From Verrucomicrobiota bacterium (GTDB lineage: Bacteria; Verrucomicrobiota; Verrucomicrobiia; Opitutales; Seribacteraceae), in NCBI GenBank assembly GCA_028343845.1, contig JAOLZO010000002.1:1-64000 (forward strand): a DNA stretch of 64,000 nt. The letters are read 5' to 3'. Position numbers and translations under genes: made by a program. Below are positions 57,332-64,000 of this stretch, one piece after another (within the stretch, counting starts at the first letter, position 1; each line of letters begins with the position of its first letter). The notes beneath the pieces are model-generated. The model saw nothing but the letters and a program-made list of their open reading frames with translations. It did no database searches and was not told the DNA's origin.

Positions 57332-57703
57332 TTATTCGCATTCCGGGCAGGATCCGTAAAGCATAACCTCGAAACCCTGCACGTCGAATCCTTCGGGTAC
57401 ATTGGCGGGGGGGATGTCTCCGGTGGTGTCCTCCAAGGCAAAGAGTTTGTCGCAGGACCTGCAGGCAAAGTGTACTTTGTCCTTTCCATCCGCCCATTCG
57501 TAGCGCGGAGGTTGGCCTGGGTAGTCGACGCCCACGACCTGTTGGTTTTCGCCCAGGCTCTTGAGGTGCCGGTAGGTGGTTGCGATTCCGATACTTGGGC
57601 TTTCAAGGGCTGCTTTCCGGTGAATCTCAAGAGGGGTTAAGGGGCGCCCGGCTGTGCGGATGACTTCCAGGATGACGTCTCCCTGCCGGGTACTTCTTTT
57701 CAT
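57332..57703 (-). CDS. Fur-family metal-responsive regulator
   Basis: Protein of 123 aa, slightly short for Fur. The winged helix is TPLEIHRKAALESPSIGIATTYRHLKSL (read in part). The dimerisation domain has VHFACRSCDKLFALED, and CPEC lies near the C-terminus, giving a four-Cys structural zinc site. It cannot be assigned to Fur, Zur or PerR by eye. It overlaps def by 4 bp on the same strand and converges with the TonB receptor. Confidence 0.85.
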   Translation of the reverse strand: MKRSTRQGDVILEVIRTAGRPLTPLEIHRKAALESPSIGIATTYRHLKSLGENQQVVGVDYPGQPPRYEWADGKDKVHFACRSCDKLFALEDTTGDIPPANVPEGFDVQGFEVMLYGSCPECE

Positions 57704-58296
57704 CGAGGGTAGGCGTAAGGAAGCTTCCCTTCCTTGAGGCAGGCTTGGGTCTTTTTCTTGAGCTGTCGAACCTCTTCCTTGATCTCAGCGAAATGGGGCT
57801 TTTCCATGAGATCGATGAAAAGGATGCCATCCAAGTGGTCCACTTCGTGCTGAATGCAACGAGCGAGCAAACCGTCGCATTCCAGCACGTGAGGCACGCC
57901 GTCGAGGTCCTGATATCCGACCCGAATGCGCTCGGGGCGAGCGACGTCTCCCTTGATCTCGGGCAAGGATAGACAGCCTTCCTCGTAATAAAACTCGTCA
58001 CAGGGGAGAAATTGGATCTTGGGGTTAGCCAAAGGCATGGGTCTTAGAAGGGCGGGGGACAGGGGTTTGCCGTCCAGAATGCAGGTCATCGGATAATCCG
58101 GATGATCAGGGACTTCGATCACGCAAAAGCGCAGGGCTTGCCCGATTTGCTGGGCTGCCAAGCCGATTCCATCGGCACCGCGCATCGCCTCGATCATGTC
58201 GTTGGCAAGATCGGAGAGTTCGTCGGAGAAGTCGGAGACTGCTTTGCCTTTTTCGTGAAGGATGCTTTCTCCATACTGAGTGATTCGCAGGGTCAT
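57700..58296 (-). CDS. def: Peptide deformylase
   Basis: Protein of 198 aa with all three deformylase motifs: GIGLAAQQIG, EEGCLSLPE (metal Cys) and QHEVDHLDG (HExxH). It removes the formyl group from new proteins. It is the first gene of a def-fur pair with 4 bp overlap. The gap of 113 bp to the next gene is divergent. Confidence 0.95.
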   Translation of the reverse strand: MTLRITQYGESILHEKGKAVSDFSDELSDLANDMIEAMRGADGIGLAAQQIGQALRFCVIEVPDHPDYPMTCILDGKPLSPALLRPMPLANPKIQFLPCDEFYYEEGCLSLPEIKGDVARPERIRVGYQDLDGVPHVLECDGLLARCIQHEVDHLDGILFIDLMEKPHFAEIKEEVRQLKKKTQACLKEGKLPYAYPR

Positions 58297-58409: not shown

Positions 58410-60722
58410 ATGAGGGAAAAGGAAGACAGGTTGGCTAAACTAAGTTCATTTATCAAGGGAAGGTACGGGAGCATAGCGTTTATCCCGTTTATCATTGTGT
58501 TTGCGATTCTCGGTTTTGCTTCCCCCGTTTATTTCGACACGGTTTCCGAAGATACGTTGAAAGACGTAGGCGATGGGAGTAAGACGATTGATCAGGAAAT
58601 CCTCAGGCAACTTCGGCAAAATAATTTGGGGCCTGCCGAGATGTTGCTTCCTTTGACCTCGCGCCCCAAGAAAAACGGTTTCGAGAACGAAATACTAAAA
58701 AAGAAAAAGGATTATCCAAGGTTAGCGATATCCGGGGGAGGAAGCATTTTCGATATGCTGACCTTTGACGATTATTTCGGAGGCTTGGACAAATTCAATG
58801 AGAACCGCGGGCGTTTCGAAGCCTTTTTCGTTTATAATCGGGCGACCACGCGGGGAGACTTATTGGATAGGTTGAAGAGCAATAGCTCGAACGACAATGT
58901 GCAGGCGATCCTTAAGAGCATTCCGGAAGGGCGTCCGGGAAACTTTTGGACCCGCTTGTTCGCGGAACCATTGGTATCCTCCTTCCCTGGGGTAAAGATC
59001 GTTAACTTGGAGGGTTTTCATTTCTTTCCCGACCGCAGGGTGATCCTCTCGGTGGGGGTTCGATCCCCAAGCGAACTGGAGGGCAATGCTTCGGAAGCTG
59101 AAATCCGTGATCTCTGTTTGGAGGATGCCCGCAACGGCTTCGCGAAATTCTCCGGGAAGTTCGAATCCTTCGAGGTAAGGAAAAAGGGAGCGGATGCGGA
59201 AGTCACTGAGGTGGATGACAACCAGACTCTCGATGAGGTTGATTTTTCGGAGCTTTCCCGCCGGGCCGCCACCCTTAGGATGAGTAAAACGGATGAGGGT
59301 GGGTATGTGGTTATTATCGGCGGAGTGATTGGTCGTGATGGAAAGCTTGAAAATCACGGGCGTTGGCTACCCTATCCGATGCTGGTTCCCATGATGGTGG
59401 GAACGGCCATGTCTTTGGAAAAGGATTATTATTCTTCCGATGTGGCTTATGAAATCGGAGAACTTTCCAAACAAATGCTTTCGGGCGATTTGGAATCCAA
59501 GGAACGGATACGATCCTTTTACTGGGCTGCCCATCAATTGGCCCGAAAAATGAATTTCATGCAAATGGCCGAATTGACCCAAAGTTGTTCGGATCTGCAG
59601 GCGGTTTTTGATCTTTCCGCCTTGATCAGGACAAGTAACTCTCCGCTCGCCGAGGCGGTGGGGAAACTCAAGGCGGAAAAACGCAAACTTTTGTTTCCAT
59701 CGGCCGATCGTAGCGAGGCTCCGGTCGAACTGAAGGAATTTGAGGATAACGTTACGATTGCGGAAAAAGCGTTTGAGGAGGACTTGCGTATCATCTACGC
59801 GGCCACCTTGCTCAGTGGAGATCCATCGGGATTGCGTGATTTCGTGGAGGGCTATCCCGTTTATTATAGGAATGGTGACAAGGATGCCGCAGCGTCTGCC
59901 CTTCGGGACGTCAAATTGGCCATGAGTTATGGGAGCGAATCGCTCAAGCACTTGCTTGTTAGGAATCAGCCCATTCATGACAAGGGCCCTGTCCTTAGTA
60001 TGCTTTCATCCGTTTTTTCCTGGTTCGGAGGAGATGTTCTAACGCATCTATCCCACACGAATCGTTCGCTTGCCCTGTTTTTAAAAATGACCTTGATTGG
60101 CTCCGCTTTCTTTTTGTTGCTCCTTTTCCTTTCCCAAGCCTTGCCCAAACCCAAATACAAGCGGACCGAATCCCATTTCATGTTACGTTGGACCAGAAGA
60201 TTTTCGGTTGCCACACTTTGGTGCTTGCTTGTGATCATGGTACTCGAACCGACCCTGCTTCAAACACCTCGGGGTCAGGTTTCGGTCGCCGGCTTTGATT
60301 TTGCGCTTGCGAATTTGCTTTCCTCTAACAATGACCAATCTCAGATGGATAAATTAACTATCGAAACGGCGCTTGTGGCAGGAGGGTTCCTGCTTGTTCA
60401 AATCGTCATTTTTATAATCTGCCTTGGCCGGGTTTCTCAAGTGAAGAAAGAGGAGGCCAAGCCCGGGCTCAAGCTCAAGCTCTTGGATAACGAAGAAAAC
60501 CTATTCGATCTTGGCCTATATATGGGGTTGGGTGGCACGGTTCTTTCCTTGATCTTGCTTATGGTCTTGACGAAAGACGGCAATACTCCCGCCCTTATCG
60601 GCGCTTATACCTCGACGCTGTTCGGGATTCTTTTCGTGGCAGCTCTCAAAATTTTCATCATTCGCCCCTTTCGCAACCATCTGCTCGTGCAACAGGCTGA
60701 CGAAAAAAGGTATGAACCGTAG
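58410..60722 (+). CDS. Unknown membrane protein, ExbB/MotA-like C-terminus
   Basis: Protein of 770 aa. One TM helix (about 22-42: IAFIPFIIVFAILGFASPVYF) precedes a soluble, presumably periplasmic, part of about 500 residues that I cannot match to a family. Five TM helices fill the last 220 residues. The final two, LGLYMGLGGTVLSLILLMV and GAYTSTLFGILFVAALKIF, resemble the conserved helices of TolQ/ExbB/MotA (LGLLGTV and ATxxGL patterns). It overlaps the next gene, which has an ExbD/MotB-like TM helix with Asp, by 11 bp. A proton-driven complex is an inference. No named homologue is recognised. Confidence 0.6.
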   Translation: MREKEDRLAKLSSFIKGRYGSIAFIPFIIVFAILGFASPVYFDTVSEDTLKDVGDGSKTIDQEILRQLRQNNLGPAEMLLPLTSRPKKNGFENEILKKKKDYPRLAISGGGSIFDMLTFDDYFGGLDKFNENRGRFEAFFVYNRATTRGDLLDRLKSNSSNDNVQAILKSIPEGRPGNFWTRLFAEPLVSSFPGVKIVNLEGFHFFPDRRVILSVGVRSPSELEGNASEAEIRDLCLEDARNGFAKFSGKFESFEVRKKGADAEVTEVDDNQTLDEVDFSELSRRAATLRMSKTDEGGYVVIIGGVIGRDGKLENHGRWLPYPMLVPMMVGTAMSLEKDYYSSDVAYEIGELSKQMLSGDLESKERIRSFYWAAHQLARKMNFMQMAELTQSCSDLQAVFDLSALIRTSNSPLAEAVGKLKAEKRKLLFPSADRSEAPVELKEFEDNVTIAEKAFEEDLRIIYAATLLSGDPSGLRDFVEGYPVYYRNGDKDAAASALRDVKLAMSYGSESLKHLLVRNQPIHDKGPVLSMLSSVFSWFGGDVLTHLSHTNRSLALFLKMTLIGSAFFLLLLFLSQALPKPKYKRTESHFMLRWTRRFSVATLWCLLVIMVLEPTLLQTPRGQVSVAGFDFALANLLSSNNDQSQMDKLTIETALVAGGFLLVQIVIFIICLGRVSQVKKEEAKPGLKLKLLDNEENLFDLGLYMGLGGTVLSLILLMVLTKDGNTPALIGAYTSTLFGILFVAALKIFIIRPFRNHLLVQQADEKRYEP

Positions 60723-62445
60723 TCTTCTGCTGGTCGTCTGCGACTTCCTTCTCCTAAGCATTCTAGGCTTGGCTCGTTTTGACGTGCCGAAAGATGCAGA
60801 GTATGAAAATGACAAGCAAAAACTTGTTGGCAAGGATGTCGTTGAACGAACTTCAGATGGAGAGAATTACGATGACGTTGTGGCCGAGCTAGAGGCGACA
60901 AACGAGACTTTACTGGAGAACTTGAGCAGCGACAAGGATGACTTGGTCCAGGAGAAATTGGAGTTGGAGGAACAGATCGCCCAGCGCCGGGAGGAGCTTG
61001 CTGAAAAGGAAAAGCAAATCGAATCACGCGACGAGACGATTGCTCAAAACGAGGTAGCGATCTTGGAGGCGAAAAAAGAATCTGAAGAGCTGGAGGCACA
61101 ACGTCAGGAGATTGAGAAAAAAAGGGAACAATTGCTCCAAAATAATGCGGCCTCCAAAAAGGAGCTTGAGTTGTTGGCTAAGAACTTGGCCGAGGCCAAG
61201 AAAAAGACCGAGGAATTGGCCGTGCTGAAGGAACGGCAGCAAAAGGAAGCCGAGTCCATCAAAGTCGAATTAGCCGCAACTCAGGAAAAGGCCAAGGCGG
61301 AGGAACGCGCCGCGGCTGAAGCCAAAGCTCTTTTGCAGGAGGAAAAGAAAAGATCTGATGCCTTGGTCGCATCCACGACCAAGATTGATGAACGGATAGA
61401 CTCCTTGAACCGAGACCTGAAAGAGGATCTGAAGGGAGTGGGGCAGGAATTGAGAGGGGTTGGTCAGGAACTGAAAGGAGTCGGTGAAAACATTGCCGGG
61501 GTAGGGGACAAGATAGCAAGCGTGTCGAACGAGGTCACCAGCGTGAAGGACGACGTCTCCAGGGTTGGTCAGGAGGTTCAGGGGGTCAAGGAGACCGTTT
61601 CTAACGTAAGCGAGGAAGTTGCGGGTGTCGGAACCAAGGTAGAGACCATTCAGCAGGATGTTGCCGAGAATGCGGCCGAGCAAAAGGAGAATTTCCGTCA
61701 GCTTTCGGAGAGACAGACCAAGTCGGTCAACGAAATCTTTTCCAAATATGAGGAGAACAAGGTCAAGCTAACCTTTAATTATTCTCACAACAGCGGGCTT
61801 TTCGGCAAGGAATCGACGACTACTTTCAGTATGGATACCATTATCATGGTGGATGGTTCGTTTGCATACTCCCTGGTTCATGCCAAGGACAGTCCCTTCA
61901 AGTTGGATCCGAGACCGAGGAAGCTGATCAAAGTTTCCGGTGAAATCACCAGCCCCAAGCTGAACGCCCCGATTCCCGTAAAGCAAATCGCCTTTATGGA
62001 TGATCCCCGCATCTTGATCGTGCCTCTTTACGTTAACCCGGTGGATCTGAAGAAGACCTCGTCCATCGAGTGGTTCAATTCGCCGGAAAACCCGCACCTT
62101 TTCTCCGAGGCAGTTGTCGTGGATGCCAAGGATGGTCGATTCGGGCAAACCGATTTCGTTCGGGACGAGAGAGATTCCCGATACATCAAGGTCAAGCATA
62201 CCCGGTTTGCATTCGTCACCGGGGCATTTGATCCCGGCAAGGGCGATCTTGTCTTTTCCCAAAAGGGTGAAGTGCTCGGCCTTTTGGTCAATCGAGACTA
62301 CGCGTTTCACGTCCAGAACCTAGCGGCTCGTATTCACGCAGATTCGATTACACCTCTTGGTGAAACATTCGATTCATCGAAGATGAACCGCCTTACCGTT
62401 TCCCTAAAGAAGAAATTATTTGGCTTGAGCAACAAATTCAGGTAA
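60712..62445 (+). CDS. Unknown coiled-coil protein with TM-Asp helix, ExbD/MotB-like
   Basis: Protein of 577 aa. The N-terminus MNRSLLLVVCDFLLLSILGL is a single TM helix with a central Asp11, as in ExbD, TolR and MotB where this Asp carries protons. Residues 55-235 are a long charged coiled coil. Residues 240-310 are GVGxEL-type heptad-like repeats. The last 220 residues are a globular domain whose segment KGDLVFSQKGEVLGLLVN recalls the end of a trypsin-like fold, without the GDSGG serine. It overlaps the upstream membrane protein by 11 bp. Function unknown. Confidence 0.65.
   Translation: MNRSLLLVVCDFLLLSILGLARFDVPKDAEYENDKQKLVGKDVVERTSDGENYDDVVAELEATNETLLENLSSDKDDLVQEKLELEEQIAQRREELAEKEKQIESRDETIAQNEVAILEAKKESEELEAQRQEIEKKREQLLQNNAASKKELELLAKNLAEAKKKTEELAVLKERQQKEAESIKVELAATQEKAKAEERAAAEAKALLQEEKKRSDALVASTTKIDERIDSLNRDLKEDLKGVGQELRGVGQELKGVGENIAGVGDKIASVSNEVTSVKDDVSRVGQEVQGVKETVSNVSEEVAGVGTKVETIQQDVAENAAEQKENFRQLSERQTKSVNEIFSKYEENKVKLTFNYSHNSGLFGKESTTTFSMDTIIMVDGSFAYSLVHAKDSPFKLDPRPRKLIKVSGEITSPKLNAPIPVKQIAFMDDPRILIVPLYVNPVDLKKTSSIEWFNSPENPHLFSEAVVVDAKDGRFGQTDFVRDERDSRYIKVKHTRFAFVTGAFDPGKGDLVFSQKGEVLGLLVNRDYAFHVQNLAARIHADSITPLGETFDSSKMNRLTVSLKKKLFGLSNKFR
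61428..61640 (+). repeat. Heptad-like repeat region in the coiled-coil protein
   Basis: About ten imperfect 7-residue units of type GVGQELR, GVGQELK, GVGENIA, GVGDKIA, VSNEV follow one another, encoded by similar but diverged DNA. They would form a continuous helix or beta-type stack that joins the coiled coil to the C-terminal domain. Confidence 0.7.
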
Positions 62446-62478: not shown

Positions 62479-64000
62479 GTGCCAGAGAACCAAGACAGCG
62501 AACCCCAATCCGCCGGAGCGGAATCCGAAACAACGTCAGCTGATTCCGATTCGGAAATAAAAAGTTCCCTTTCCGAGCGTGGTTTTTTCGCCCGCAAATT
62601 GGAATTGCCCAAAGATCGTTCGCACTGGGTCGTTACTTTGCTGTTCATCCTCTTGGCCTACAGTCTGAGCGTGTGGGTTCGATATACTTGGATAGACTTT
62701 GCCGAGGCTCACTATGTTTCGGAAGCAGGAGAAACGGAGTTCTTCAGACCTCAAATGGTTCGGGATGGGGTGGCTTTGCCCAATACGCATGACAGTTTTT
62801 ACTTTGGCAGCATTATTCAAAAAGCCCTCTACGACAGGCATCAGGATAATCATCTTATTCCCAGCGTTTACGCGAACGGAGCAATTACTTACTTGCCCTA
62901 TCTTTTGCTCAAAACCTTTCCGGACAGTTGGACGATCGAGGAATTGCTTCTGAAATTTCCCGTTTGGGTCGCTGGCTTGGTCTGTATTCCGCTTGTCTTG
63001 ATCGGCCGTTTCTATGGCAGCTCTCTTTGGGGTTTCTTTGCCGCCTGCTTGGCCGGAGTCGCGCATAGTTACTATAACCGCACCTTGGCCGGTTACTACG
63101 ATACGGACATGTTTTCCATCACGATGCCTGCCTTTGCCCTTTGCTTTCTTTTGGCTGCCTGCCGTAGGGAATCGGTGGGTTATTTGGTCTTGGGCGCCAT
63201 TGCTCTCTATCTCGGACGGTTTTTCTACAGCTCGACAGCTGCTATAACTTGCTCGATTTGCCTCGCATTCATGGGGTATCGCCTGGGCGTTTTCGCCTTG
63301 GATTTTTTTGCCGCAAGAAAGAAGGCGCCTGCCGAAAAAGTTCTTAACCAATTGCAGGGCGTCGCTTCCCTCAGGTTTACCTGCCTGAGCGTAATTTTCA
63401 TTGGTTGGGCCTTGTTTTCGGAAACCTGGTCCAGTGGACCGGGTATGGAGAATGACATCTTGAGGTTTTGGGTCGGGCTTTTCTTTCCCGCTCTTCTTTG
63501 GTTCGTGGTTAAGCTGAAGAAAGGCAAAGGGAACGAAAACCTCAGGAAGAAGTCGTTTGCGGACGAGGCGGAGGAACCGCAAGATGAAAAACCAGAGCTT
63601 CCAGCTTATTTGATTCCTGATAAGTTTTTGTCCTCCGTGTTGGTTGTTATCGTCGCGCTGGTATGCATAGGAGTTCCGCCCGCTTTGGATACGGGACCTT
63701 TCTCAGGAACCTGGTCGAAGATTACCAGTAAGATGCAGAGTTATTCGAGCAAACGAACGGACGGGGCTACGGTATCGGGGAATACAGGTTACAACCTGCA
63801 CTTTAAGGATGTCAAAAGCACCATACGAGAGGCTGGTTCCCTTGATCAGCGAAATTCGGTAATAAACAATATCCGAATGCGGAACCGGATTTTGGAAGAT
63901 TTGCCTTTGTGGAGAAATGAATGGACCGGAGAGAGGGAGGAGGAGCCCGACGCATCTGACTATAAGAAGCGGGCGGACAATTATAACTGGCTCAACCCCG
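62479..64000 (+). CDS. STT3/PglB-like oligosaccharyltransferase, partial at window end
   Basis: At least 507 aa, open at the right edge. An acidic N-terminal tail of about 35 aa precedes TM helices. The family motifs are visible: NTHDSFYFGS as first acidic motif, and YYNRTLAGYYDTDMFSITMP, nearly the same as the PglB segment that binds metal and lipid-linked glycan. It should move a glycan from a lipid carrier to Asn of exported proteins. The WWDYG-type motif would lie near or past the window edge and is not seen. The start is uncertain: a GTG at 62479 follows an in-frame stop. It lies 33 bp after the coiled-coil gene and may share its transcript. Confidence 0.85.
   Translation, partial: MPENQDSEPQSAGAESETTSADSDSEIKSSLSERGFFARKLELPKDRSHWVVTLLFILLAYSLSVWVRYTWIDFAEAHYVSEAGETEFFRPQMVRDGVALPNTHDSFYFGSIIQKALYDRHQDNHLIPSVYANGAITYLPYLLLKTFPDSWTIEELLLKFPVWVAGLVCIPLVLIGRFYGSSLWGFFAACLAGVAHSYYNRTLAGYYDTDMFSITMPAFALCFLLAACRRESVGYLVLGAIALYLGRFFYSSTAAITCSICLAFMGYRLGVFALDFFAARKKAPAEKVLNQLQGVASLRFTCLSVIFIGWALFSETWSSGPGMENDILRFWVGLFFPALLWFVVKLKKGKGNENLRKKSFADEAEEPQDEKPELPAYLIPDKFLSSVLVVIVALVCIGVPPALDTGPFSGTWSKITSKMQSYSSKRTDGATVSGNTGYNLHFKDVKSTIREAGSLDQRNSVINNIRMRNRILEDLPLWRNEWTGEREEEPDASDYKKRADNYNWLNP

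Follow-up and report, generated by a model that had tools for sequence, protein, structure and literature searches.

A conserved overlapping gene pair of Verrucomicrobiota as a candidate ion-driven envelope motor with an HtrA-like head on its axle protein

Two overlapping genes outside the curated families

The window analysed here is a stretch of 64,000 nt (positions 1-64,000 of contig JAOLZO010000002.1) from a marine Verrucomicrobiota bacterium, and our subject is a pair of genes on its forward strand, which we call A and B. In the open reading frame (ORF) list of the window, gene A lies at 58410-60722 (+) and codes for 770 amino acids (aa); it is a putative ring subunit with six transmembrane (TM) helices, of ExbB/TolQ/MotA-like type. 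Gene B, at 60712-62445 (+), codes for a putative axle protein of 577 aa, of ExbD/TolR/MotB-like type. The two genes overlap by 11 bp (60712-60722) on the same strand. An original prediction, made from the sequence alone, had given these coordinates and this overlap, which our ORF check bears out, as hydropathy does for the six helices it had counted in A and the single one in B.

Neither protein finds a match among the curated families. For A, no Pfam, NCBIfam or PADLOC family came out above its cut-off; for B, no cut-off of these three collections was reached and the matches were noise of the coiled-coil type. Searches of Protein Data Bank (PDB) sequences with A and B gave noise or coiled-coil matches only, and no published description of the pair was found in literature searches. 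Homologues of A are nevertheless present in 58/92 related genomes and those of B in 61/92, so that the pair is not a product of chance.

Gene A: six helices and two pore-type motifs

Hydropathy places TM1 of A at aa 22-40 (58473-58529). It is followed by a putative periplasmic domain of about 515 aa (aa 41-555, 58530-60074), delimited by hydropathy and homologue comparison, and then by TM2 (aa 556-574, 60075-60131), TM3 (aa 599-617, 60204-60260) and TM4 (aa 654-672, 60369-60425), the last of which is also a helix in the AlphaFold2 (AF2) model. The remaining two helices hold most of what links A to known motors. In the motif alignment, TM5 (aa 701-719, 60510-60566) is the equivalent of ExbB/TolQ TM2 and bears GLGGTV, including Thr710 (codon 60537-60539), and TM6 (aa 733-751, 60606-60662) is the equivalent of ExbB/TolQ TM3 and bears AYTSTLFGI, including Thr736 (codon 60615-60617). 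The counterparts in E. coli ExbB/TolQ are GLFGTV and ATAIGL, the motifs shared by the pore helices of all three proteins being GLxGTV and TxxG[IL]. Thr710 aligns with ExbB Thr148 and TolQ Thr145, and Thr736 with ExbB Thr181 and TolQ Thr178. ExbB Thr148 and Thr181 are reported as essential, together with ExbD Asp25 (PMC12905483). Two pore-lining helices with essential threonines are what one expects of the PF01618 family, and A has both positions (Thr710 and Thr736). Among 88 non-redundant A homologues, 84 keep Thr710 and 74 keep Thr736.

A large domain of about 500 residues had been put forward as a distinctive trait of A. It is indeed present in the window and is not a fixed feature of the family: its size is about 500 aa in the organism's own family and about 300 aa in other Opitutales families, and it is absent from the short forms of another class described below. 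As it varies within the order and is missing from the minimal pairs, comparison of the homologues points to a lineage-specific add-on.

Gene B: an acidic helix, a long shaft and an HtrA-like domain

B starts with its sole TM helix, a transpore-like one by hydropathy (aa 5-23, 60724-60780; MNRSLLLVVCDFLLLSILGLARFD), in which Asp11 (codon 60742-60744) is invariant in the family alignment. The same Asp is also invariant in the 20/20 far homologues, from another class, that were inspected. There, the helix has the sequence MNRSILIVICDFLVLS or MRRSILVVMIDVMVLSVLAL; the second of these closely resembles IDVMLVLLIIF of ExbD, with which IDVMVLSVLAL in far B homologues is to be compared. One N-terminal TM helix bearing an Asp is what an axle subunit should have, and the B sequences display it. 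The original prediction was right about this residue, save that it saw it as central; its actual place is within the first third of the helix, like that of Asp25 in ExbD.

The helix is followed by a predicted coiled-coil shaft (aa 43-225, 60838-61386), delimited from coiled-coil-type profile matches and family spacing, and by an array of eleven heptads (aa 239-315, 61426-61656), whose hydrophobic autocorrelation is 0.79 at lag 7 and 0.80 at lag 14; a coiled coil of about 180 residues and a heptad array had both been anticipated. Across the B family, 220-400 residues, mostly predicted coiled coil, separate the Asp from the C-terminal domain. As a continuous helix, such a shaft would measure 33-60 nm, long enough for crossing the periplasm.

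The C-terminal domain (aa 333-577, 61708-62442) gave an AF2 model with a predicted local distance difference test score (pLDDT) of 90, and Foldseek matched this model to HtrA, Deg and DegS (E 4.6e-7, probability 1.00), an HtrA-like fold that the sequence searches (Pfam, PDB sequences) did not detect. At the position of the catalytic serine of GNSGG, the B family has no column conserving a Ser, the region reading mostly [KR]-G-D-[LFI]-V. For want of this conserved serine, the domain is, on sequence and model, a predicted pseudoprotease as a family, and we set aside the reading of B as a functional serine protease. What had been perceived by eye as a trypsin-like remnant is, therefore, a true HtrA-like fold without a conserved catalytic serine. 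No PDZ domain was seen in B, and Pfam found in it neither an ExbD/TolR periplasmic domain nor an OmpA-like domain. We also noted, in a relative without A (L084, 3718-4536), a lone 272-aa homologue of the HtrA-like domain; it starts like a signal peptide and has neither coiled coil nor Asp helix.

Co-inheritance of A and B and a minimal form in another class

The original prediction had made its case depend on the two genes occurring together, and they occur jointly and side by side across the order and in another class. In the phylum sample, within the order, 32 genomes have A (that of the window included) and a full-length B is found in 32/32 of them; among the 11 genomes without A, it is found in 0/11. 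We also scanned a collection with one genome per species (84,980 bacterial and archaeal species), which yielded 170 relatives of the A core. The best 80 of these 170 belong to Verrucomicrobiota, mostly Opitutales, except for one record title that is probably misassigned: PBCW01000002.1, titled Rhodospirillaceae, has an A/B locus with match scores identical to those of an Opitutia locus. B is directly downstream of A in about 66 of 80 independent contigs, often with an overlap of 4-11 bp. Adjacency and co-inheritance, which one looks for in the genes of such motors, are thus both found, the genes being unlinked only in one genus. There (L076/L077, L079/L080, L088/L089), A and B are separated by tens to hundreds of kb or lie on separate contigs, and both are kept. 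Coraliomargarita sp. SDUM461004 is among the bacteria that have the pair.

In the other Verrucomicrobiota class, the A homologue has only 171-224 aa (about 185 aa); its four helices match TM3-TM6 of the A protein of the window, and a B of about 490-640 aa comes immediately after it. With the window's A as a single-sequence query, BLASTP finds the short forms at E down to 3e-17. The short pair is single-copy and near-universal in two families of this class; a long A occurs in one additional family (L166, L167, L174). The pair is, therefore, conserved across at least two classes of bacteria, and its conserved core, as judged from these sequences, consists of TM4-TM6 on the side of A and, on that of B, the TM helix, the coiled coil and the C-terminal domain.

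Is A a relative of ExbB, TolQ and MotA?

We consider it rather probable that A and B make up an ion-driven motor in the inner membrane, akin to ExbBD/TolQR/MotAB (5:2), the motors that power the flagellum and outer-membrane systems. For the kinship of A, several lines of evidence can be given. The joint threonine motif occurs in 229/256 A, in 50/51 ExbB-family ORFs and in 2/4023 other ORFs, these two being read as overlooked A and ExbB members, and in 0/41 E. coli membrane ORFs. Against decoys made of T2SSF and E. coli membrane ORFs (n=41), ExbB-family members obtained higher scores with the A profile (Mann-Whitney p 9e-11, the members not being independent of one another), and TolQ ranked first, with 28.0 vs 24.1 for the best of the 41 E. 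coli membrane-protein decoys. In hhalign, the pore helices of A fall in register with those of ExbB. As for the fold, the AF2 model of A aa 543-770 (pLDDT 78) consists of long helices, and MotA, PomA and TolQ chains make up 7/10 of the top and 18/50 of the top Foldseek matches of the membrane part in the PDB.

One has to set against this a series of results that weigh on the other side. The joint motif was written after inspecting both families, so that the above counts measure its specificity and yield no unbiased p-value. With HMMER, neither the ExbB profile on A nor the A profile on ExbB members separated relatives from decoys. The hhalign alignment of A and ExbB has a probability of 18% vs 75% for MotA-ExbB, and the raw score of an unrelated pair, ExbB and T2SSF, is similar (26.4 vs 29.4); the alignments are shallow, the probability having risen from 2% with a shallow alignment to 18% with 88 diverse sequences. 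PF01618 has a cut-off of 22.9 bits, and the C-terminus of the window's A reaches 7.5 bits (E 4.6); among 41 A members the best E is 2.4, and the short homologues have no match. A search of PDB sequences with the A profile found no motor protein, and all the Foldseek matches of the membrane part have E >= 0.1 and low TM-scores, none being significant. No single test of kinship with ExbB/MotA is, in the end, significant for A. Besides, A is predicted to have a far smaller cytoplasmic part than MotA or ExbB; one clade of A has Asn in place of Thr736 (SNLFGI), perhaps a sign of different ion handling; and the gene neighbourhoods give no functional clue and no link to an envelope process.

Taking both sides together, kinship of A with ExbB/TolQ is likely, and sub-threshold by profile and by fold. 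By profile, A is not a PF01618 member; its residue-level and functional resemblance to the ExbB family is, on the sequences, good. The resemblance of the last helices of A to TolQ/ExbB/MotA, first drawn by eye, thus holds for the motifs with both threonines and for a tendency of profile and fold, and does not extend to significant scores. The same genome also encodes ordinary PF01618 proteins and a separate, ordinary MotA, which makes A/B an additional system.

Comparison with known systems

With ExbB-ExbD, the pair shares adjacent genes, the threonine motifs GLxGTV and TxxG[IL], and, in the single TM helix of the partner protein, an Asp close to the N-terminal end. It differs from them in that A is without an above-cut-off PF01618 match, has a small predicted cytoplasmic part and carries extra TM helices and a periplasmic domain; in that B has a coiled coil and an HtrA-like domain in place of the small ExbD domain; and in that no TonB/TolA-like gene recurs beside A/B. 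TolQ is the top single sequence against the A profile and has the same threonines, whereas the neighbours tolA, tolB and pal of the Tol-Pal system are absent and the axle architecture of B is different. MotA-MotB and PomA-PomB provide the best PDB fold matches of A, four TM helices as in the short A, and an Asp in the TM helix as in B; however, A has no MotA_N torque domain, and no OmpA-like peptidoglycan-binding domain was detected in B.

Two less classical systems are also to be compared. GldLM is an accepted 5:2 motor whose sequences show no conclusive homology to those of the other systems and whose B-type subunit has large periplasmic domains (PMC9389320); as described, it is a precedent for A/B, with a periplasmic fold that differs from the HtrA-like one of B. 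TPH-vWA proteins, in which a TolR-like transpore helix with Asp is fused to a vWA domain and accompanied by a TolQ-like partner gene, occur in Verrucomicrobia (PMC12204202). Combining an Asp transpore helix, a large periplasmic domain and a TolQ-like partner, they are the nearest published idea to A/B, from which they differ by a vWA rather than HtrA-like tip, whereas A/B has a long coiled-coil shaft and a single B gene instead of heterologous pairs.

ZorA-ZorB also associates a coiled coil and an Asp-helix partner in a motor pair; here, however, it is the B-type subunit that has the coiled coil, presumably in the periplasm. PADLOC gave no Zor match in A and coiled-coil noise in B, with no defence neighbours, and we set aside a Zorya defence reading, as there is no ZorA/ZorB profile match and the neighbours are def and fur-like genes. 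Finally, the C-terminal domain of B has the trypsin-like fold of HtrA/DegS/DegP, and differs from them by its lack of a conserved catalytic serine and of any PDZ domain that we could see.

The pair had been described as unlike TolQR, ExbBD, MotAB and ZorAB in layout. This stands for the shaft and HtrA-like head of B. It is less true of the large A domain, an add-on, since large periplasmic domains have already been reported in non-flagellar members of the superfamily (PMC12505986). All in all, A/B probably resembles ExbBD/TolQR in its working, as a divergent relative.

Proposed mechanism and rival explanations

The analysis shows the gene pair with its conservation and co-occurrence, the topology of both proteins, the residue motifs and, in B, an HtrA fold with no conserved catalytic serine. 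What we infer about the motor concerns the stoichiometry of the ring, the use of protons, the rotation, the crossing of the periplasm and the role in the envelope. Several copies of A, probably five, would form a ring in the membrane, with TM5 and TM6 lining the pore and bearing a ring of threonines (Thr710, Thr736). Two B chains would insert their N-terminal helices in this pore, where Asp11, facing the threonines of A, would be protonated from the periplasm and release its proton to the cytoplasm, a cycle that would drive a stepwise rotation (or pulling) of B relative to A. The dimeric coiled coil of B would carry this motion across the periplasm to the HtrA-fold pseudoprotease, which, having lost catalysis, may serve as a peptide- or protein-binding tip gripping a partner. 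Torque or tension would then be passed on to a partner in the cell wall or the outer membrane with no need for a separate transducer of the TonB/TolA type; in Opitutales, the extra periplasmic domain of A may anchor the ring. In such a scheme, A/B probably couples the inner membrane to some envelope task.

The most serious rival, which we regard as unlikely, is a membrane-anchored sensor or scaffold, in which B would be a DegS-like pseudoprotease binding misfolded or outer-membrane protein tails, A would relay or tether without ion flux, and the likeness to ExbBD would be convergent. The layout of B, an N-terminal anchor and then an HtrA-fold domain, is that of DegS, the statistics of the ExbB relationship are sub-threshold, and L084, which is without A, keeps its stand-alone HtrA-like protein. 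This explanation nevertheless accounts neither for the invariant acid in B's sole TM helix, nor for the paired threonine motifs of A and the strict pairing of the two genes. The same acid bears on another reading, in which the N-terminal helix of B would be a signal peptide cleaved at an ALA-R site, leaving a free periplasmic coiled-coil protein and no pore helix: MNRSLLLVVCDFLLLSILALA does have an n/h/c-like layout, with an AxA-like end in many members, yet an invariant Asp is unexpected inside the hydrophobic stretch and the AxA end is lost in the far class (e.g., SLSTGL), so that we find this reading improbable. Least credible of all is a mechanotransmission permease of MacB/FtsX/LolC type with B as its periplasmic shaft, which we considered for its similar layout (TM1, large periplasmic domain, TM bundle) and for FtsX being among three chance-level matches of the A profile to PDB sequences (E 0.49), and set aside because the short A homologues are without the large domain, no ABC ATPase recurs beside A/B, and the fold matches of A are MotA/TolQ, not FtsX.

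Gene neighbourhood and significance

Upstream of the pair and divergent from A, the recurrent neighbours are a peptide deformylase gene (def, 36/100 loci) and a gene for a Fur-like regulator (27/100 loci), both located at 57332-58296 in the window. On the other side, a gap of about 30 bp separates B from the start (62479) of an STT3-like oligosaccharyltransferase gene (PF02516, E 1e-19), which runs off the window (62479-64000, +); it is not among the recurrent neighbours of the relatives' loci.

Returning to the motor that we propose, a housekeeping envelope role is favoured over defence or gliding, because the pair is near-universal and single-copy in some families and has no defence or motility neighbours. 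Few kinds of envelope motors driven by the proton-motive force are known, and more have been argued to await discovery (PMC12204202). We lean, with somewhat less assurance than for the motor itself, towards A/B being a new 5:2-type family, driven by protons or sodium and ancestral in several lineages of Verrucomicrobiota; its axle would be a periplasm-crossing coiled coil with an HtrA-derived pseudoprotease, motor and transducer being united in one protein. The minimal form, with its four-helix ring subunit of about 185 aa, would rank among the smallest candidates for a 5:2 core. If this is true, the pair adds a motor whose axle protein provides both the shaft and an HtrA-derived head for binding, and does so in a phylum where envelope biology has been little worked on; there, its single-copy near-universality in some families suggests a housekeeping role in the envelope.

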